This document shows, piece after piece, positions 4,754 through 12,358 of a DNA stretch of 64,000 bases. Origin of the DNA: Thermus caldilimi (GTDB lineage Bacteria; Deinococcota; Deinococci; Deinococcales; Thermaceae). The notes under the pieces are model-generated. The model searched no databases and was not told the origin of the DNA. It saw only the letters and a list, made by a program, of their open reading frames with translations. The stretch covers positions 434,001-498,000 of the forward strand of contig NZ_CP038452.1 in the NCBI RefSeq assembly GCF_004684245.1, given 5' to 3'. Made by a program: the position numbers and the translations under genes. Numbering within the stretch: position 1 is the stretch's first letter; each line of letters opens with the position of its first letter.

Positions 4754-4780
4754 TTGCTTTCAGCCTCGCCTCCGTATAAT
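4754..4780 (+). promoter_or_regulatory. Promoter of the plus-strand fluoride operon
   Basis: A consensus TATAAT -10 box lies at 4775-4780, with a TTGCTT -35-like box at 4754-4759 (15-bp spacer). The transcript would begin about 6-8 nt downstream, right at the 5' edge of the riboswitch aptamer. Confidence 0.6.
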
Positions 4781-4786
4781 GTCCTC

Positions 4787-4838
4787 GAGGCGATGGGGCC
4801 CGCCTGAAACCGCCCAGCCGGGCTGATGGCTCCTACCC
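4787..4838 (+). ncRNA. Fluoride riboswitch (crcB motif) aptamer
   Basis: The element matches the fluoride aptamer part by part. It begins GGCGATG, closes the first hairpin with CGCC (GGCG/CGCC stem), continues with GAAAC and a GCCC/GGGC hairpin, then GCTGATGGC and CTCCTACC. The loop GGGGCC (about 4795-4800) can pair with GGCTCC (about 4828-4833) to form the defining long-range helix. A terminator overlaps its 3' end, as in transcriptional ON switches: bound fluoride would stabilise the aptamer and allow read-through. The controlled gene is the antiporter at 4886. A second copy at 12296-12344 has compensating changes in the same helix. Confidence 0.93.
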
Positions 4839-4860
4839 AGAAGGGGTAGGGGCCTTTTCT
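4832..4860 (+). terminator. Riboswitch-controlled intrinsic terminator
   Basis: CCTACCC (4832-4838) pairs with GGGTAGG (4844-4850) across a short loop, followed by GGCC and a CCTTTTCT tract. The 5' arm is also the 3' end of the aptamer, so aptamer and terminator are mutually exclusive. Confidence 0.85.
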
Positions 4861-4885
4861 CCTACCCCGGAAAGGAGGAAACCCC

Positions 4886-6055
4886 ATGGACTGGAGTGCG
4901 GCGGCAATCTGGATGGGCTTGGCGGTGGTGGCGGCCCTGCTTTCCATCTGGTTCCGGGTCTCCGTGGCCCTAACGGAGATCCTGGTGGGGGTAGCCGCAG
5001 GAGCCCTTATAGGCAAGGAGGCCCTTCACACCATGGCATCCTGGGTAACCTTTCTGGCAGGGGTGGGAAGCGTTGTCCTCACCTTTCTGGCTGGGGCTGA
5101 GCTGGATCCGGAAACCCTGAAGCGAAGCTGGAAGGAGGCCTTTGCCATAGGGCTCGCGGGCTTCTTTGCCCCGTTTCTTGGGTCAGCCTTCGTGGCCCAT
5201 GCCCTCCTGGGCTGGGATCCCCGGGCCAGCTGGCTTGCTGGTGTGGCCCTGTCCACCACCAGCGTGGCCGTGGTCTATGCGGTGATGCTGGAGCTGGGGC
5301 TGAACCAGACTCCCTTTGGCAAGGTGATTTTAGCCGCTTGTTTCGTCAACGACCTGGGGACGGTTCTGGCCTTGGGCCTCCTATTCGCCCCCTTTGGGAC
5401 GGCCACCTGGGTGTTTGCCCTAGGCCTTGGGGTAGGGTTGTACCTGCTCATCCGGGCTACCCCATGGCTGTTCGCTCGCTACGGCGGCAGCACCCATGAA
5501 CTGGAGGCCAAGTTTCTCCTCTTCGCCCTCTTCGCCCTGGGGGCCTTAGCTGCCTGGAGCGGCTCGGAGGCGGTGCTTCCCGCCTACCTGGTGGGTATGG
5601 TTTTGGCCGGGAGTGTGGGCAAGGACCACGCGTTGATCCGCCGCCTGCGTACCCTTACCTTGGGGCTTCTCACGCCCTTCTATTTCATCAGGGCGGGTAG
5701 CCTGGTGAGCCTTCCCGCCCTCCTGCTCGGCCTGGGGGGTTTTTTCGTTTTGTTGCTGACCAAGATGGTAAGCAAGGTTCTTGGGGTCTATCCCATCACC
5801 CTGGTCTTTCGCTACCGGAGAAGGGATGCCGCCTACACCACCCTCCTCATGTCCACAGGGCTCACCTTCGGCACCATCAGCAGCCTTTACGGGTTAACCC
5901 ATGGAATCATCAGTGAAGACCAGTATTCCCTGCTGGTGGCTGCGGTCATCGCCAGCGCCGTGGTGCCCACCTGGATCGCCAACCGCTTCTTCCTGCCCCA
6001 CCATCACATTCAGGCAGCGCGGATTGGCCTCGAGGAGGTGCGGAATGAAGGATAG
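4886..6055 (+). CDS. CPA2/Kef-type cation:proton antiporter under fluoride control
   Basis: The 389-residue membrane protein has about 11-12 hydrophobic segments and an AAAGGAGG ribosome site before its start. It resembles NapA/Kef-type monovalent cation:proton antiporters (Na_H_Exchanger family). In the core, S-T-T-S-V-A-V-V-Y (about 123-131) precedes F-V-N-D-L-G. The ion-binding pair is therefore Asn155-Asp156 rather than Asp-Asp; in this superfamily an Asn-Asp pair is usually linked to electroneutral exchange. There is no C-terminal TrkA-N/RCK domain. The fluoride riboswitch directly upstream implies a role in fluoride tolerance. Antiporters are among the known gene classes behind this riboswitch, but whether this protein moves fluoride or restores pH/ion balance is unproven. 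Confidence 0.85.
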   Translation: MDWSAAAIWMGLAVVAALLSIWFRVSVALTEILVGVAAGALIGKEALHTMASWVTFLAGVGSVVLTFLAGAELDPETLKRSWKEAFAIGLAGFFAPFLGSAFVAHALLGWDPRASWLAGVALSTTSVAVVYAVMLELGLNQTPFGKVILAACFVNDLGTVLALGLLFAPFGTATWVFALGLGVGLYLLIRATPWLFARYGGSTHELEAKFLLFALFALGALAAWSGSEAVLPAYLVGMVLAGSVGKDHALIRRLRTLTLGLLTPFYFIRAGSLVSLPALLLGLGGFFVLLLTKMVSKVLGVYPITLVFRYRRRDAAYTTLLMSTGLTFGTISSLYGLTHGIISEDQYSLLVAAVIASAVVPTWIANRFFLPHHHIQAARIGLEEVRNEG

Positions 6056-6087
6056 GTTGGGGCTGAGGGAAGAGGAGGTGAGAAAGC

Positions 6088-6507
6088 ATGTTTCGTAGGA
6101 TTTTGGTAGGATACGATGGATCGGAGCCTGCTAAAAAGGCCTTAATCGCTGCCCTGGAGCTGGCCCAGGCCTTCCGGGGGGAGGTATTGGCGTTGGCGGT
6201 GGTCCGGCCACCGGAGTTCGCAGAGCTGGGGATCGAGCTGGAAGGGGTACTGGAGGAGGCCAAAGGGCCCTTGGCCGAGGCCTTTCGCTTTGCCCAGCGC
6301 GAGGCCGCACGGCGGGGGGTGGTCCTGAGAACCCGAAGCCAGGTGGGGCATCCGGCGGAGACCCTGGTGCGGGTGGCGGAAGAGGAAGGCTTCGACCTCA
6401 TCGTACTGGGGCGGCGGGGCCTAACCCCGGTCCAGCGCTGGATGCTGGGCTCGGTCTCGGAGAGGGTGTTGCGCTACGCCCCCTCTGCCGTGATGGTGGT
6501 GCACTGA
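6088..6507 (+). CDS. Universal stress protein (UspA family), ATP-binding type
   Basis: A single Usp domain of 139 residues. It starts F-R-R-I-L-V-G-Y-D-G-S with the conserved Asp10 and ends with the nucleotide motif G-x2-G-x9-G-S, seen as G-R-R-G ... M-L-G-S-V. This marks the ATP-binding subfamily. It is the second gene of the fluoride-riboswitch operon, 32 nt after the antiporter. Usp genes often pair with transporters and may modulate them. Its stop overlaps the next start (TGATG). Confidence 0.9.
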   Translation: MFRRILVGYDGSEPAKKALIAALELAQAFRGEVLALAVVRPPEFAELGIELEGVLEEAKGPLAEAFRFAQREAARRGVVLRTRSQVGHPAETLVRVAEEEGFDLIVLGRRGLTPVQRWMLGSVSERVLRYAPSAVMVVH

Positions 6508-6908
6508 TGGAACTGCCTCCCTGCCCCTACCGTCAGGAGGGCCGCTGTAGCGCCGAAGAGGACCGACCCATCACCCCGGAGGACTGCCAGCGTTGCCCGA
6601 TTCCCGAGGCCTTGGCCCATCCACAGGCGTGCCTGTACCTGGTTCCCTTCCGCATGGAAGGAACGGCTCTATTCGCCTGCCGTTTCACCTTCACCTGGGC
6701 CAGGGAACCTGCGGTGGCGGACTGGAGGTGCCTTTGCCCCTGCCCCTACTGGTTCCCCCGGGCCCCGGAGGAGGCATGGATCCGCGACCTCCGCTCCCTC
6801 CAAGACCGCTACCGCCGGGTGCTTAAGGGCGAGGAGCCCCGGTATCCTCCCTTGGTGCCCCCGAAAACCGACTCCCGAAGAAGGAGGTGGCCGTGGTCCA
6901 AAGGCTAG
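6507..6908 (+). CDS. Cysteine-rich small protein of unknown function (fluoride operon)
   Basis: I do not recognise this 133-residue protein. It has at least nine cysteines in its first 80 residues, including C-x2-C (C-Q-R-C) and C-x-C-x-C (C-L-C-P-C) clusters, which suggests a bound metal or Fe-S site. The C-terminal 20 residues are strongly basic (S-R-R-R-R-W). No signal peptide or membrane segment is present, so it is probably cytoplasmic. Its start overlaps the stop of the Usp gene, which argues for translational coupling and for a real gene. Its place in the fluoride operon is the only clue to function. Confidence 0.6.
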   Translation: MELPPCPYRQEGRCSAEEDRPITPEDCQRCPIPEALAHPQACLYLVPFRMEGTALFACRFTFTWAREPAVADWRCLCPCPYWFPRAPEEAWIRDLRSLQDRYRRVLKGEEPRYPPLVPPKTDSRRRRWPWSKG

Positions 6909-7180
6909 TCTTGGTGGGGCCCGAAGACCTCCACCGTACCCCACTTTTCCTGTCCCCACACCCCCAGCCACTTCCCCAGGTGCTGGAAGTTCTGCGTAGG
7001 TCCGTGGATGAACCCATGGACGGGGATCCCAGGGCCAGCTTTGTCCTTTACGAGGAGGGGCGTGCGCAACTTTACCGTGTACAGTACGACCTTCAGGGGC
7101 TTCTCGGGGCCCTGGAAGGTTTGCCGTTAGGCAAAGAGCAAAGGGCGGAGCTTCGCCGACTATATGAACGGGCTGGGTGA
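6893..7180 (+). CDS. Small unknown protein, fluoride operon
   Basis: A 95-residue protein with no family I recognise. The GTG at 6893 is preferred because AAGGAGG lies six bases upstream; the GTG at 6887 is part of that ribosome site. It overlaps the preceding Cys-rich gene by 16 nt. Residues 1-8 form one hydrophobic strand; the C-terminal half is charged and helical (L-G-K-E-Q-R-A-E-L-R-R-L). The same ribosome-site/start string occurs at the first MutS-like gene across the island. Confidence 0.5.
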   Translation: MVQRLVLVGPEDLHRTPLFLSPHPQPLPQVLEVLRRSVDEPMDGDPRASFVLYEEGRAQLYRVQYDLQGLLGALEGLPLGKEQRAELRRLYERAG

Positions 7181-7184
7181 AAGC

Positions 7185-7520
7185 ATGCGGGGGCATGAGG
7201 AAGCCGTGCTCTTGAGGATCTTTGTGAGTGAATCGGATCGCTACGAGGGTCGGCCCCTTTACCAGGCTATAATCCTAGAAGCCAGGAATCGGGGTCTGGC
7301 GGGAGCCACAGCCTTTAAGGGGTTTCTGGGATACGGGGTCCACTCCCGCATCCACAGCGCTAGATTTATTCGTTCCGAGGACTTGCCGGTTATGGTGGAG
7401 GTAGTGGATACGCAGGAGAAGATCCTCTTCTTCCTGAACGTCCTGAAGGGGATGCTGGCGGAGGGCTTGGCCACCCTGGAGCGGGTGGAGGTGATCAGAT
7501 CTTCGCCGGAGGCGAGATGA
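7185..7520 (+). CDS. DUF190 family protein (PII-like, fluoride/CrcB-associated)
   Basis: The sequence carries the DUF190 signature: L-L-R-I-F-V-S-E-S-D-R-Y-E-G-R-P-L-Y, then R-G-L-A-G-A-T, G-x-G-x-H-S-R-I-H, and D-L-P-V-M-V-E-V-V-D-T. DUF190 proteins have a PII-like trimer fold and commonly sit beside crcB fluoride channels. Here no crcB is seen, but the operon is led by a fluoride riboswitch, so the association persists without the channel. The start at 7185 gives the usual family N-terminus; an ATG at 7164 is possible. It overlaps the next gene by 4 nt. Confidence 0.85.
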   Translation: MRGHEEAVLLRIFVSESDRYEGRPLYQAIILEARNRGLAGATAFKGFLGYGVHSRIHSARFIRSEDLPVMVEVVDTQEKILFFLNVLKGMLAEGLATLERVEVIRSSPEAR

Positions 7521-8632
7521 ACCCCGCCTGGCGTTTCGTGGTGGCCATCGGCTTGGTGAGCCTTTTTGCTGATCTTACCTACGAGGGAGGGCGCAGTATT
7601 GCTGGAGCCTTCCTGGAAACCCTCGGCTCCTCTGCAGCCCTGGTAGGCTTTGTTGCCGGGTTTGGGGAATTTCTAGGCTACTTGGTGCGCTTGGTTTCCG
7701 GAGGGCTTGCAGACCGGTTTCGGTTTCACTGGCCCCTTCTCTACCTGGGCTACGGGGTGAACCTGCTCTCGGTGCCGGCTCTGGCCTTGGCCCAAGGTCC
7801 TGTGGGGGCGGGCCTGCTTCTTTTTCTGGAACGCCTCGGGAAAGGTCTGCGCACTCCTGCCCGCGATGCCCTTCTGGCTAGGGCCGGGAAGGAGGTGGGT
7901 CACGGTAGGGTCTTTGGCCTGCACGAGACGGTGGACCAGATAGGTGCCTTTCTGGGCCCCTTGCTGGTGGCCTTGGGGGTAGCCCTGGGAGGCTACCGTC
8001 TCGGTTTTGCCTTCCTTCTTCTTCCCGCCCTCCTGGCCTTAGGCTTCCTCCTTCGGGCGCGCGGCCTCGAGCTCCAGGAGGAGAGGGTCCTTCAGGTCCA
8101 GCCCCTGCCCTCGGGCTTTTCCCTTTACCCGCTTTACAGCGCTCTCTTCGCCTTGGGATTCGTGCACTTTCAGCTTCTGGCCTTTCATCTGGAAAAGCTG
8201 GGGGCCGGGCCGGTACATATCCCCCTTTTCTACGCTTTAGCCATGGGTGCGGATGCCCTTTTTGCCCTCCTGGGTGGCCTGGCTTTTGACCGCTTGGGCC
8301 TAAGAAGCTTGTTCTTTGCTCCCCTTTTCGCCCTCGCAGCCCCCCTCCTCCTGGGGAATAACCCGGCCCTTTGGTGGACGGGCAGCTTCCTTTGGGGAGG
8401 GGCTCTGGGGCTGCAGGAAAGCGTCCTGCGGGCCGGGGTGGGCCACCTAGGGGGTTCGGCCTTTGCCTACGGGGTTTTCGACACGGCCTTCGGCTTTGCC
8501 TGGTTCTTGGGAAGCGTGGCCATGGGTTTCCTTTACGAGACCTCGCCGGTTCGTGCGATGGCCTTCGTAGGCGGCAGCGAGGTCTTTGCCCTCCTTGCCC
8601 TCCTTGCCCTTCTGGCTCGCATACGGAGGTAG
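7517..8632 (+). CDS. Major facilitator superfamily transporter (fluoride operon)
   Basis: A 371-residue membrane protein with 11-12 hydrophobic segments. It has an MFS-like loop 2-3 motif (G-G-L-A-D-R-F, about residues 63-69) and a repeat of it in the second half (G-L-A-F-D-R-L-G-L-R). The cytoplasmic segment E-R-L-G-K-G-L-R-T-P-A-R-D resembles drug-efflux MFS proteins. The start overlaps the DUF190 stop by 4 nt. The substrate is unknown; fluoride-responsive expression is inferred from operon position. Confidence 0.78.
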   Translation: MNPAWRFVVAIGLVSLFADLTYEGGRSIAGAFLETLGSSAALVGFVAGFGEFLGYLVRLVSGGLADRFRFHWPLLYLGYGVNLLSVPALALAQGPVGAGLLLFLERLGKGLRTPARDALLARAGKEVGHGRVFGLHETVDQIGAFLGPLLVALGVALGGYRLGFAFLLLPALLALGFLLRARGLELQEERVLQVQPLPSGFSLYPLYSALFALGFVHFQLLAFHLEKLGAGPVHIPLFYALAMGADALFALLGGLAFDRLGLRSLFFAPLFALAAPLLLGNNPALWWTGSFLWGGALGLQESVLRAGVGHLGGSAFAYGVFDTAFGFAWFLGSVAMGFLYETSPVRAMAFVGGSEVFALLALLALLARIRR

Positions 8633-8637
8633 AGACC

Positions 8638-9246
8638 ATGGGGTTTTTCAGCCGGAATCGTCCGAAACCCAAGGATGCGGAAAGCGACCGCATGGTGGAG
8701 GAACTCAGGGCCAGCCTGGCCAAAGCGCAGGAGGAAATCGCCTTTCTGCGCTCGCAAAACGATCGTCTAAGCCAGGAAGCGGCGCCCGCCTTGAAGGAAA
8801 ACGCGGTGTTGCGTTACGAACTCTTCAAGTGCCAAACGGACCGTCAGGTGTTGGAGTTCCACCTCTTTGGCCTGCGCGCCGAGCTGGGAGGGGCTCTGGC
8901 CCTTTTAGCCCGCTTGGCTCCGGGCGAACCCCCGAAGGAGCAGGCTGTGCTCCAGGCCTTTTTGGATCTGATGGAGGTGGGGCGGCGCCTGGGGGTGGAG
9001 GTCAGGGAACTCTACGAAGCGGAAACGCTGGCCAAGCGCTCCCTGGATGGGCCGCAGGGGTTTGATCCGGAGCGCTTTCTCCGTCTGCGCCTTGTCGGCA
9101 TCCTGGCAGCTGTGGAGCGGATCCTAGGGGAGGAAATCCGGAGGGCGGAGCGGCCCGGGGAAGCCCTTGCCGGGTTCCCCGAGCATCTTCAGGAACTCCG
9201 TCAGCTCCTGGCCAAGGCCCTCTCCTCTTGGGCGGGGGCCAATTAG
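8638..9246 (+). CDS. Coiled-coil cytoplasmic protein of unknown function (last gene of fluoride operon)
   Basis: The start at 8638 is chosen for its GGAGGT site and lies 5 nt after the MFS stop. The 202-residue product begins with M-G-F-F-S-R-N-R. Residues about 15-75 then form a heptad-rich coiled coil (E-E-L-R-A-S-L-A-K-A-Q-E-E-I-A-F-L). The rest is alpha-helical, Leu/Glu/Arg-rich, with no membrane segment. I recognise no domain. It converges on the MutS-like pair, with only 7 nt between the stop codons. Confidence 0.6.
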   Translation: MGFFSRNRPKPKDAESDRMVEELRASLAKAQEEIAFLRSQNDRLSQEAAPALKENAVLRYELFKCQTDRQVLEFHLFGLRAELGGALALLARLAPGEPPKEQAVLQAFLDLMEVGRRLGVEVRELYEAETLAKRSLDGPQGFDPERFLRLRLVGILAAVERILGEEIRRAERPGEALAGFPEHLQELRQLLAKALSSWAGAN

Positions 9247-9253
9247 GCCTTGC

Positions 9254-10714
9254 CTAGCCGAAGATCCGGCGCAGAAGGTCGAGGCCGTAGGCGGTGGGCT
9301 CGGGAGGTGCCTCCTTGAGGCGGTAGGTGCGCCGGCCGTCGGGGAGGCGCTCGGCTCTTAGAAAAAGGGCCTTGGCGTTGCCTAAGAAAGCTGCCGCCAG
9401 GGTGTAGAAATGGGTGACGAACACCACCCGTATCCCCCGTTCCACCAGGGCTTGGATCACCTGTGCCCCCAGTTCCGATCCCTCGGGCTCGCTGGTGGCC
9501 GCGAAGCTCTCGTTGAAGAGAAAGAGCGGCCGGGCGGTCAGGTGGTCCACCAGGTCGCTAAGCCGCCTGAGCTCCTCCTCAAACCTCCCCGCCTCGAGGG
9601 ATGGGTCCTCTTCCCGTTTGAAGTGCGTGAATAGGCCGTCCACCAGCCCGCTTTCAAAGAACTCGGCTCCCACGAAAAGCCCGGCCTGCATCATGATTTG
9701 GGCTAGGCCTAGGCTACGCAAAAAGGTGGTCTTGCCCCCGCGGTTTGCCCCAGTGATCAGAATCGGGTTCTTGCCGTGGGCTTCCAGATGGTTGCCCACC
9801 GCATACCCTTGCCGAAGGGCAAGGCCCACATCGTAGAGGTTGCGGAAGGCTAGGCGAACCCCTTCGGCAGGAACGGGAAAGGCTAAAGGCAGGCCTAGTG
9901 CCCGAAGCCTGTTGGCCAGCCGGATGGCTCCCAGGAGAAAGCCTACCTCGGCTCGGAGAGCCTCGAAGAACCGGGTGACTTCTTCCACCGCCAGCGCCAA
10001 GGCGCGTGCGGCGGCAAACACCCCTCTCTCCCGAAACTCCCCCAGGATCCTTGCCCCAGCCTCGTCCCGGGGGTGAAGGGTGAGAGTGAAGGCCTTCGGC
10101 CTGCTGCCGAAGGGCCAGGGGATGGGGTTTCTTTTCGGGAGCAAGAGGGTGTAGTCCCGGCTCCTTCCCCCTGGGCCCAAGGAAGCCGTCATCCAGATTC
10201 CTTGGGGAAAGCGCAGGGCTCGAAGGTGCCCTTCCGCTTCCCGGAAAAACTCCGGGGTGAGGTGGGCAGCCAGCTGATCCTTGAGACTCCGAAAGCCCCT
10301 CGTGGCCAGGTGAGCCGATTCCAGGAGCTCCCGTACCCCTCGTAAGCCCTCCAGAAGGGCCTCCATCGCCTTGATGCCCCCGTAGAGATCGGGGCGATCC
10401 CGCCGGAAAAGACCCCAGGACTCCTTGCGTTTTTCTTGCAGGGTTTGCCCGGCCAGGCGGTAAAGCGCTTCTATGAGCCTGGGATGCTCTAAAGCCTCGC
10501 GGAGCACCTCCTGACGGTGGTGGATGACCCGGGCTTCCTGGGATAATCCCTGGGCCAGGACCTGGCGGGCTACGTCTAGCAGGTAGGTGTCGCCCTCCGC
10601 CATGGCCTCCAGGACCGTTCCCAACCCGAGGTCGTGTTCCACCTCGGCCCAGGAGTAGGGGAGGGGCTTGGCCAGGCTTAGGTCCTCGTCCGGGTGCAGG
10701 AGTCCCACCCTCAT
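9254..10714 (-). CDS. MutS-like ATPase A (lever and ATPase domains only), fluoride-controlled
   Basis: A 486-residue protein whose C-terminal third is a MutS/ABC-type ATPase. The Walker A is G-A-N-R-G-G-K-T-T (about 317) and the Walker B ends L-F-L-F-N-E-S. It is followed by a switch-like V-T-H-F. The N-terminal part is helical and matches a MutS core/lever arrangement; the mismatch-recognition domain of canonical MutS (F-x-E) is absent, so post-replicative mismatch recognition is unlikely. Walker B has Asn-Glu where MutS proteins usually have Asp-Glu. It overlaps the upstream paralogue by 4 nt, so the two products may form a heterodimer. The pair is preceded by a fluoride riboswitch. Confidence 0.8.
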   Translation of the reverse strand: MRVGLLHPDEDLSLAKPLPYSWAEVEHDLGLGTVLEAMAEGDTYLLDVARQVLAQGLSQEARVIHHRQEVLREALEHPRLIEALYRLAGQTLQEKRKESWGLFRRDRPDLYGGIKAMEALLEGLRGVRELLESAHLATRGFRSLKDQLAAHLTPEFFREAEGHLRALRFPQGIWMTASLGPGGRSRDYTLLLPKRNPIPWPFGSRPKAFTLTLHPRDEAGARILGEFRERGVFAAARALALAVEEVTRFFEALRAEVGFLLGAIRLANRLRALGLPLAFPVPAEGVRLAFRNLYDVGLALRQGYAVGNHLEAHGKNPILITGANRGGKTTFLRSLGLAQIMMQAGLFVGAEFFESGLVDGLFTHFKREEDPSLEAGRFEEELRRLSDLVDHLTARPLFLFNESFAATSEPEGSELGAQVIQALVERGIRVVFVTHFYTLAAAFLGNAKALFLRAERLPDGRRTYRLKEAPPEPTAYGLDLLRRIFG

Positions 10715-12258
10715 GCCCCGCCTCCTAGGCGGCGCTTCAGCGCCTCGTAGGTCAGTCCGTGTCTGGCCGCCAAGGCCAGGGCGTAGGCCTTACCCTCCGC
10801 AGGCTTTTCACGGATGTGGAACGTCCGCCTTGAGGGGTCACTGGGATCCACTTCTGCCACCAGGCTCCTGGTTCCGGGAAGACGGGCAAGCTCATCCAAG
10901 AACGTGACCACCAGGGCCAAGCTCCCCTTGTCGCGTATCTTTTCCAGCAGAAAGCGGCCTATCATCCTTGCATCCACGAGGGTAGCGGAGGCCAGGGGCT
11001 CGTTCAGGATGAGGAGGGAACGAGCCGTGGCCTGCTCAAGGATATCCCTTAGCCTCAACAGGTCTGATTCCAGCTTGCTTCTAAGGTCCTCGGGGTTTTC
11101 CCGGACTTCGAAGTGGCTGAGAATCCGGTCGGGTAGAAGGAGGCGGGCCCGTCTTCCGGGCACCGGAAGACCCAGGGAGAAGAGGTGGTGAACCTGGCCT
11201 ACCATACGGGCAAAGGTGGTCTTTCCCCCCTGGTTGGGCCCGGTGATCACGAGGATGTGCTCCCTTTCCACCCGAAAGTCGTTGGGTATGGGCACTTTTC
11301 CCTCGGCCACCAGCTTGGCTGCCAGGACCAGGTCGAAGGCTCCCTCCACGAAAAAGGGCGGGGTGTCCGCAGGTTCCGGGTAGGTAAAGGGAAGCCCCGC
11401 GGCACGCAAGGGGGAAAGAAAGTCCAGATAGGCCAGAAAGAAGCGCACTTCCCGCTCCAGCCGGGCCAGAACGGGGTCCAAAAACCCCTGATGGGTTGCA
11501 AAAAAGGACTGAAGGCGGGCAAAGGGCCCCGGGAAAAGAAGGGCCAGATGGTCCAGGAGCCACTCCTCTATGTGGTTGAGGATGGGGCCTTCTTCCATCC
11601 CGGGCTCTGGGAAGGTGGGGGAAGAAGGGCCGAAGAAGGGCCTGAAGGTTTCCATTATCCTCCGGCCGTAATCCCCTTCCCCCTGGTAGGCGCGAAGGGT
11701 AAGCCGCCCCTCGTGCACATGGAGCACGTAACGGAGCCCCTGCAGGTCCTGCCAGACGGTTTCTGCTTCCCGGCGTAGGTTGGAGAAGCCAGGGGATTGC
11801 AAGTAGGCCTCGAGGTGGGCGGCGTACGCCCTCAACCCTGGAGAATGGGGGGGAAGGAGGGACCAGTCCCGGCCCAAGGCCCCCACCCCCGCAAGGTAGG
11901 CCCGGGCGGCCTGCAGGTGGTAGAGGGCTTTTTGCCAGGGGTGCCGGGCCTTTTGCGAAAGCCCAAGCCGCCCCCGCACCTCCTCCATGGAGCGAAGGAA
12001 GCCCCGCAAGGAGGAGGCCTTTCCCTCCAGCTCCCGGCATACCGCCTGGCGGTGGAGCACTGCCGTTTTGTGATTGGGAAGGTTCCGGAAGAAGCTGAGG
12101 AGCCCAAAGCCGTCCTGGGAAGCAAGGAAGAGCCCCTCCAACTCGTCCAGAAGCAGATCCTGGAAGTAAGGAGGCGGGGGAACCTCCGGGGGGACCTCTT
12201 CCTCCGATCCCAAAAGGCTTGGCCTCCCCATCCATCGTAGAAGTTCCTCCTTGGCCAC
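10711..12258 (-). CDS. MutS-like ATPase B, first gene after the minus-strand fluoride riboswitch
   Basis: About 515 residues. The C-terminal ATPase has Walker A G-P-N-Q-G-G-K-T-T and Walker B L-L-I-L-N-E-P, with the same Asn-for-Asp change as its neighbour, and an S-x-x-x-S-D-L-L-R-L signature-like helix. The N-terminal half is helical (core/lever), without a mismatch-binding domain. The start is GTG: AGGAGG lies just upstream, and the GTG at 12258 has better spacing than the one at 12264, which abuts the ribosome site. It is separated from the riboswitch terminator by about ten bases, so its expression should require fluoride read-through. MutS-like genes have been noted among crcB-motif-associated genes, as I recall. 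Confidence 0.8.
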   Translation of the reverse strand: MAKEELLRWMGRPSLLGSEEEVPPEVPPPPYFQDLLLDELEGLFLASQDGFGLLSFFRNLPNHKTAVLHRQAVCRELEGKASSLRGFLRSMEEVRGRLGLSQKARHPWQKALYHLQAARAYLAGVGALGRDWSLLPPHSPGLRAYAAHLEAYLQSPGFSNLRREAETVWQDLQGLRYVLHVHEGRLTLRAYQGEGDYGRRIMETFRPFFGPSSPTFPEPGMEEGPILNHIEEWLLDHLALLFPGPFARLQSFFATHQGFLDPVLARLEREVRFFLAYLDFLSPLRAAGLPFTYPEPADTPPFFVEGAFDLVLAAKLVAEGKVPIPNDFRVEREHILVITGPNQGGKTTFARMVGQVHHLFSLGLPVPGRRARLLLPDRILSHFEVRENPEDLRSKLESDLLRLRDILEQATARSLLILNEPLASATLVDARMIGRFLLEKIRDKGSLALVVTFLDELARLPGTRSLVAEVDPSDPSRRTFHIREKPAEGKAYALALAARHGLTYEALKRRLGGGA

Positions 12259-12274
12259 GGCCACCTCCTAATAG

Positions 12275-12303
12275 AAAAACTCCTACCGGTTTCCCGGTAG
12301 GAG
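12275..12303 (-). terminator. Riboswitch-controlled intrinsic terminator before the MutS-like pair
   Basis: On the minus strand CTCCTACCGG and CCGGTAGGAG form a 10-bp perfect stem (12280-12303) followed by TTTTTC. Its 5' arm is the 3' segment of the fluoride aptamer, so formation of one excludes the other. Confidence 0.9.
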
Positions 12304-12344
12304 TCATCAGCCCGTTTCGGGCGGTTCAGGCGGACTCCATCGCC
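12296..12344 (-). ncRNA. Second fluoride riboswitch (crcB motif) aptamer
   Basis: Read on the minus strand the element runs GGCGATGG, CGCC (GGCG/CGCC stem), TGAACC, a GCCCG/CGGGC hairpin with an AAA loop, GCTGATGAC, CTCCTACC. The long-range helix is GGAGTC with GACTCC. In the other copy it is GGGGCC with GGCTCC, so two positions have changed while pairing is kept. That covariation supports both elements as functional RNAs. It controls the two MutS-like ATPase genes. Confidence 0.93.
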
Positions 12345-12352
12345 CTCTCTTT

Positions 12353-12358
12353 AGTATA
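12353..12358 (-). promoter_or_regulatory. -10 box of the MutS-like operon promoter
   Basis: TATACT on the minus strand lies 9 bp upstream of the aptamer start. The matching -35 would fall inside the 3' end of the upstream secreted-protein gene, where no strong consensus is visible. Confidence 0.45.

Follow-up and report, generated by a model that had tools for sequence, protein, structure and literature searches.

What do two fluoride riboswitches control when they face each other across 7.6 kb of a Thermus chromosome, and do the genes between them serve the response to fluoride as a unit? The question is raised by a 64,000-nucleotide stretch of Thermus caldilimi DNA (NZ_CP038452.1, positions 434,001 to 498,000; hereafter the window, with coordinates counted from its first base). 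The original prediction had placed two facing crcB-motif aptamers here, around two convergent operons, and had described the block as a dedicated fluoride-response locus. The plus-strand operon encodes a cation:proton antiporter, a universal stress protein (Usp), a DUF190 protein and an MFS transporter among others; the minus-strand operon encodes two MutS-like ATPases, here called MutSa and MutSb. The analysis indicates that the locus is very likely a fluoride-resistance island of two operons, each turned on by its own fluoride riboswitch.

Two fluoride riboswitches and their expression platforms

Both aptamers were borne out by a search with the Rfam covariance model of the fluoride riboswitch, RF01734 (gathering score 34 bits). 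Aptamer 1 on the plus strand scored 52.4 bits (E 1.2e-11) and aptamer 2 on the minus strand 63.3 bits (E 3.1e-15), and these two are the only copies in the whole 2.45-Mb genome. The RF01734 architecture of two short stems and a long-range helix, which joins the first loop to the 3' strand, is present, and the conserved core residues are retained in both. As had been claimed, the two long-range helices differ in sequence and nevertheless form all their pairs, one pair of aptamer 1 being G-U. Across 20 aligned aptamers this helix is 100% paired in 20/20, with both sides changed in a compensatory manner at four of the six pairs, and the three aptamer helices are 97.5%, 100% and 92.5% paired (n = 20 sequences) with compensatory changes. 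When the partner strand was slid along the same alignment as a control, the long-range pairing and its covariation were lost.

Among Thermus aptamers, those of the antiporter class mostly carry GGGGCC/GGCTCC and those of the MutS class GGAGTC/GACTCC. Since these two classes are conserved genus-wide, the differing helices of the window represent two orthologous lineages and no random pair. Text-pattern extraction of the helix misses variant aptamers, and its Thermus rows alone were used, beside the alignment-based count. Both elements have the score, the two stems and the long-range helix of a fluoride riboswitch, together with a terminator that overlaps the 3' side of this helix, and on these grounds they are genuine; they show no essential difference from the RF01734 riboswitch, the window elements being known from sequence alone.

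The predicted -10 box and overlapping intrinsic terminator were recovered at each switch (Table 1), and nearly every Thermus copy in alignment A3 has a -10-like box directly before its aptamer. The terminator hairpins have 11-12 pairs each, followed by a T tract, with folding energies of -22.7 kcal/mol (z -3.5) for 4828-4854 (+) and -23.4 kcal/mol (z -7.0) for 12278-12305 (-), both lower than all 200 shuffles. At both switches one strand serves in two structures, as the 5' arm of the terminator and as the 3' strand of the long-range helix, so that the ligand-stabilised aptamer and the terminator would be mutually exclusive, an arrangement already proposed for the crcB-motif RNA at its discovery (Weinberg et al., 2010; PMC2864571). 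Fluoride-induced read-through, i.e. an ON switch, is expected from this overlap.

Conservation of the switches and their genes

The comparison across Thermus genomes that had been suggested was run; the two switch classes proved orthologous and the island genes were found to recur with their own switches. A switch is present in 7 of 27 Thermus genomes. Thermus tenuipuniceus (G023) shares the facing layout but not the metallophosphoesterase deletion described below, and the proteins in common are 92-99% identical. In genome G013 the two switch-led operons stand in tandem on one strand, and in G001 they lie on two contigs, each operon with its own copy of the island MFS gene beside it (C10:15298-16413 and C1:355325-356437). 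The facing layout is therefore one among several Thermus arrangements. In G025 the antiporter and MutSb genes are broken into fragments, and a well-conserved switch stands ahead of a truncated MutSa remnant in G005 and G020 (L015, L019). In G021 an intact MutS pair is preceded by a decayed switch (L046:11153-11214; 18.5 bits in the local model, no Rfam match) that has lost its first stem and -10 box and has partly kept a terminator-like hairpin. From these sequences the island locus appears to have been lost repeatedly in Thermus. In G005 the switch might by now act on the next same-strand gene (L015:8562-10127), which looks dehydrogenase-like by eye. A weak hit in G002 (L047:1427-1477, 19.2 bits) was taken as chance, as it lies inside an ABC-type ATPase frame (by eye).

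At the level of the phylum, RF01734 was found in 20 of 111 Deinococcota genomes. The antiporter subfamily occurs in 10 of them and is behind a switch in all 10, nine being intact at a distance of 43-52 nt and one a fragment. The MFS subfamily occurs in 13 of the 111, all switch-bearing (13/13; hypergeometric p 2.6e-12, uncorrected for shared ancestry), and the MutS-like pair in 26, 12 of them switch-bearing (odds ratio 8.3, p 1e-4). In G092 (L098) a switch at 7628-7689 is followed by an MFS gene that stands apparently alone as its sole target (L098:7628-8919). The island MFS subfamily is, on this distribution, a candidate fluoride-related transporter.

Similar gene sets were found well beyond the genus. 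The Meiothermus-type operons of Thermaceae (L089-L093) likewise hold the antiporter, Usp, DUF190 and MFS genes and the MutS-like pair, usually with a metallophosphoesterase gene; unlike the island, they have one switch for the whole set and usually include crcB, whereas the present Thermus has two switches, no crcB in the island and a deleted phosphoesterase gene. On enterobacterial plasmids such as NZ_CP116349 (L103) a switch, an antiporter gene (product 61% identical), a Usp gene and the MutS-like pair follow in order. Such a region differs from the island in that the MutS pair comes after the antiporter on the same strand and no DUF190 or MFS gene was seen in the block, while P-type ATPase, crcB, gpm and eno genes lie convergently on the opposite strand. 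The MutS pair is found behind a switch, directly or within an operon, in Meiothermus-type operons and on enterobacterial, Mycobacterium, Alicyclobacillus, Burkholderia and Caballeronia plasmids, the switch being directly before the pair in Mycobacterium branderi, Alicyclobacillus, Burkholderia and Caballeronia. A plasmid of Rubrobacter radiotolerans, where the annotation splits a MutSa gene into two frames, carries upstream of that gene a switch-like element followed by a terminator-like hairpin (L105:6214-6293; 18.5 bits, not among the Rfam hits at the cut-off), probably another switch before a MutS pair. No switch was found upstream of the pair in Rhodococcus or Tsukamurella at a low threshold. 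Six switches occur within 17.5 kb of a Burkholderia cenocepacia plasmid (NZ_CP073671, L110), and plasmid examples of this kind mean that multi-switch fluoride islands are not rare. The L110 region also encodes two enolases, two diphosphatases, two DUF190 proteins and one dynamin-family protein.

Because the antiporter is switch-linked in every Deinococcota genome having it, the MFS subfamily keeps to switch-bearing genomes and parallel islands occur elsewhere, the block is read as dedicated to fluoride. That part of the original prediction is well supported, the orthologous Thermus switches and the islands of other phyla included. The novelty it implied for a two-switch island is not supported; by its gene content the island is the local version of a fluoride-resistance gene set that is widespread, and no new type of system.

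Gene content of the island

The seven plus-strand frames (4886-9246) and two minus-strand frames (9254-12264) converge with 7 nt between their stops (9246 vs 9254), as had been described (Table 1). The product of gene A is, by its sequence, a CPA2 cation:proton antiporter with predicted Na+/H+ or K+/H+ exchange activity. Its PF00999 score lies far above the cut-off of 26.2 bits and Asp156, the carrier aspartate, is invariant in 12 relatives, while the score for the narrower family TIGR00932 is below its cut-off (108.5 vs 238). Gene C is restricted to four island-bearing Thermus genomes, and gene G to island-bearing Thermus genomes and one remnant (G002). No phage-defence family was found among the island proteins. 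Recent acquisition of the island was considered and finds no support in base composition, the G+C content of 0.61-0.65 being like that of the flanks.

The fourth plus-strand frame, D, had been counted among seven plus-strand genes, but it is not an intact gene. Thermus tenuipuniceus (L014) has two genes at this position, one for a 149-aa protein and one for an intact calcineurin-like phosphoesterase. In the window an 862-bp deletion has fused in frame the 5' end of the former with the 3' end of the latter, at 10-bp near-identical repeats AACCC[A/T]TGGA (7011-7020). On this alignment frame D is a deletion scar and no original gene.

Table 1: Features of the probable fluoride-resistance island in the window.
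Feature	Position	Strand	Basis or remarks
-10 box TATAAT, antiporter operon	4775..4780	+	read directly from sequence
Fluoride riboswitch aptamer 1 (antiporter class, helix GGGGCC/GGCTCC)	4780..4842	+	RF01734; orthologous copies in four other Thermus genomes
Intrinsic terminator overlapping 3' side of aptamer 1 long-range helix	4828..4858 (stem 4828-4854 + T tract)	+	
A: CPA2-type cation:proton antiporter, 389 aa	4886..6055	+	PF00999, 124.7 bits; profile match to structures of NapA and KefC
B: universal stress protein, 139 aa	6088..6507	+	PF00582, 117.9 bits
C: cysteine-rich protein, 133 aa	6507..6908	+	no Pfam or NCBIfam match
D: 97-aa fusion remnant	6887..7180	+	alignment to Thermus tenuipuniceus; intact PF12850 in relatives
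E: DUF190 protein, 118 aa	7164..7520	+	PF02641, 119.1 bits
F: MFS transporter, 371 aa	7517..8632	+	PF07690
G: probable coiled-coil protein, 202 aa	8638..9246	+	no confident family
H: MutS-like ATPase b (MutSb), 486 aa, second of pair	9254..10714	-	PF00488 only; Walker A GANRGGKTT, Walker B NE, VTH
I: MutS-like ATPase a (MutSa), 517 aa, first of pair	10711..12264	-	PF00488; Walker A GPNQGGKTT, Walker B NE, VTF
Intrinsic terminator overlapping aptamer 2, then T tract	12278..12305	-	
Fluoride riboswitch aptamer 2 (MutS class, helix GGAGTC/GACTCC)	12291..12353	-	RF01734; orthologous copies in six other Thermus genomes
-10 box TATACT, MutS-pair operon	12353..12358	-	read directly; just downstream of preceding gene's stop codon

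Known fluoride loci and the position of crcB

Links between this riboswitch and antiporter, Usp and mutS genes, which had been mentioned in the original prediction, are indeed published. The genes associated with the crcB-motif RNA include mutS and ion-transport genes (Weinberg et al., 2010; PMC2864571), and Na+/H+ antiporters are the next commonest switch targets after exporters (2024 review, PMC11139923). In Enterobacter cloacae FRM a switch leads a fluoride-induced six-gene operon with a Usp gene (PMC5533749). What it shares with the Thermus island is a switch at the head of a polycistronic resistance operon, with a universal stress protein among the products. The E. cloacae operon has crcB, enolase, phosphoglycerate mutase and pyrophosphatase genes, none of which is in the Thermus island, whereas the latter has in addition the antiporter, the DUF190-MFS pair and the MutS-like pair.

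No island protein matches CrcB or CLC, and the locus is consequently not an exporter operon in the sense of a fluoride exporter placed under the switch. The sole crcB of the genome (C1:1972718) is without a switch and is directly followed by a DUF190 paralogue 67% identical to the product of gene E. Across Thermus, crcB is present in 26 of 27 genomes, with a switch at 0 of those loci; only about 15% of Flucs are switch-controlled (PMC11139923). The DUF190 and CrcB trees were poorly resolved and leave undecided whether the switch-free crcB pair of Thermus originated from the island. On a plasmid of Aquicella lusitana (L151), three consecutive genes encode CrcB, a DUF190 protein and a protein related to the island MFS transporter, with no switch detected, so that these three families are linked independently of the riboswitch.

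The MutS-like pair and alternative explanations

Genes I and H overlap by 4 nt. Relatives of MutSb match MutS domain V and no further MutS domain (17/17), domain V is likewise the only one detected in MutSa, and the two partners differ in a motif, VTF in MutSa against VTH in MutSb; an adjacent pair with this asymmetry suggests a heterodimer. An AlphaFold2 model of MutSb, built from two near-identical sequences, reached a pLDDT of 37 and was not used. A profile search of genome contigs with the Thermus MutSb alignment matched Thermus tenuipuniceus only, and the viral contigs scanned gave no match. In L127-L130 (G079, G075, G076), where no switch lies nearby, the neighbour of the MutS-like pair is a proton-pumping pyrophosphatase or a CitMHS/TrkA-C transporter, and such neighbourhoods may offer a clue to the general role of the pair.

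The minus-strand genes had been named MutS, and a DNA-damage stress was first proposed for mutS-linked crcB-motif RNAs (Weinberg et al., 2010; PMC2864571), so a role of the pair in DNA repair or recombination under fluoride stress has to be weighed. The ATPase domain is clearly of MutS type and the best structural match is MutS2, over the ATPase region alone. Yet neither the mismatch-binding domain I nor the Smr nuclease domain was detected in either protein, the Walker B motif reads NE, with asparagine for the aspartate of DE, in all 38 sequences inspected (21 MutSa, 17 MutSb), NCBIfam MutS scores are far under the cut-off, the VTF and VTH motifs are unequal within the pair, and canonical-length MutS and MutS2 homologues are already encoded elsewhere in the genome. 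Such a DNA role is unlikely, and the label of mismatch-repair MutS finds no support. The pair could instead be an ATP-driven chaperone or reactivase, similar to KamC, that frees poisoned enzymes of fluoride-metal-phosphate complexes. Both proteins have KamC among their best NCBIfam matches (68.6 and 50.2 bits), the pair neighbours genes of fluoride-sensitive enzymes (enolase, inorganic diphosphatase) on plasmids, and a proton-pumping pyrophosphatase stands beside it in switch-free genomes; against this, the scores are far under the KamC cut-off of 300 bits, the alignment covers the ATPase region only and gene neighbourhood is circumstantial. This proposal is tentative and, as it stands, rather unlikely. 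A bolder combination is doubtful, namely that MutSa-MutSb would be a dedicated heterodimeric machine against fluoride damage to proteins and that DUF190-MFS would be an unrecognised efflux route replacing CrcB in the RNA-controlled response of Thermus.

The dedicated island itself must be set against two other accounts of the locus, and several observations weigh against it. No good -35 box was recognised ahead of either switch, and no terminator is recognisable between the convergent 3' ends of the operons, so that overlapping transcripts are possible. No switch was detected in 14 of the Deinococcota genomes that have the MutS pair (which in G002 is a fragment and in G021 follows the decayed switch), and several switch-free pairs adjoin a proton-pumping pyrophosphatase or a CitMHS-family transporter; the pair is therefore not exclusive to fluoride. 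Relatives of the island MFS transporter occur in heavy-metal contexts on Nostoc and Legionella plasmids. It is possible, although somewhat improbable, that the switches are functional and the island is an ageing, decaying remnant of a fuller operon to which several genes now contribute little. The scar of gene D, the fragments in G025, the switches before MutSa remnants in G005 and G020, the decayed switch of G021 without its -10 box, the limited spread of the switch in Thermus and the crcB and metallophosphoesterase genes usually held by Meiothermus-type operons would all agree with decay. The other eight frames are nevertheless intact here, with 58-99% identity to Thermus orthologues over nearly their whole length, and the core residues of both switches are kept. 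That the aptamers are conserved relics, or regulate other genes, and that the island content is coincidental is strongly disfavoured and very improbable: switches do persist before broken genes (G005, G020), but the spacing between switch and antiporter is near-constant in every genome having the antiporter, and the same gene set recurs with switches across several phyla.

A proposed model of the fluoride response and its significance

For the fluoride-resistance island, the following course of events is proposed. Without fluoride, the nascent leader would fold the terminator hairpin and transcription would halt ahead of the first gene. Fluoride, entering mostly as HF, would bind the aptamer with Mg2+ and stabilise the long-range helix, which would occupy the strand of the terminator 5' arm and let RNA polymerase read through. 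The plus-strand operon would then supply the CPA2 antiporter, which may correct the acid load of HF, together with the universal stress protein, the DUF190-MFS pair, possibly exporting an ion or toxicant, and small accessory proteins. The MutS-fold ATPases of the minus-strand operon, probably as a heterodimer, would repair or remodel fluoride-damaged targets and would not act in mismatch repair. Basal fluoride export would fall to the crcB-DUF190 pair, which lies outside the island and has no switch.

Fluoride switches flag the genes that cells use against fluoride, several of them without a known role. The present locus separates the switch regulon from the exporter CrcB, so that the inducible response would consist of the antiporter, the MFS-DUF190 pair and the MutS-like ATPase pair. 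As pieces of the island recur across phyla and on plasmids, the study of its genes one at a time in a tractable Thermus could give widely distributed unknowns a function.

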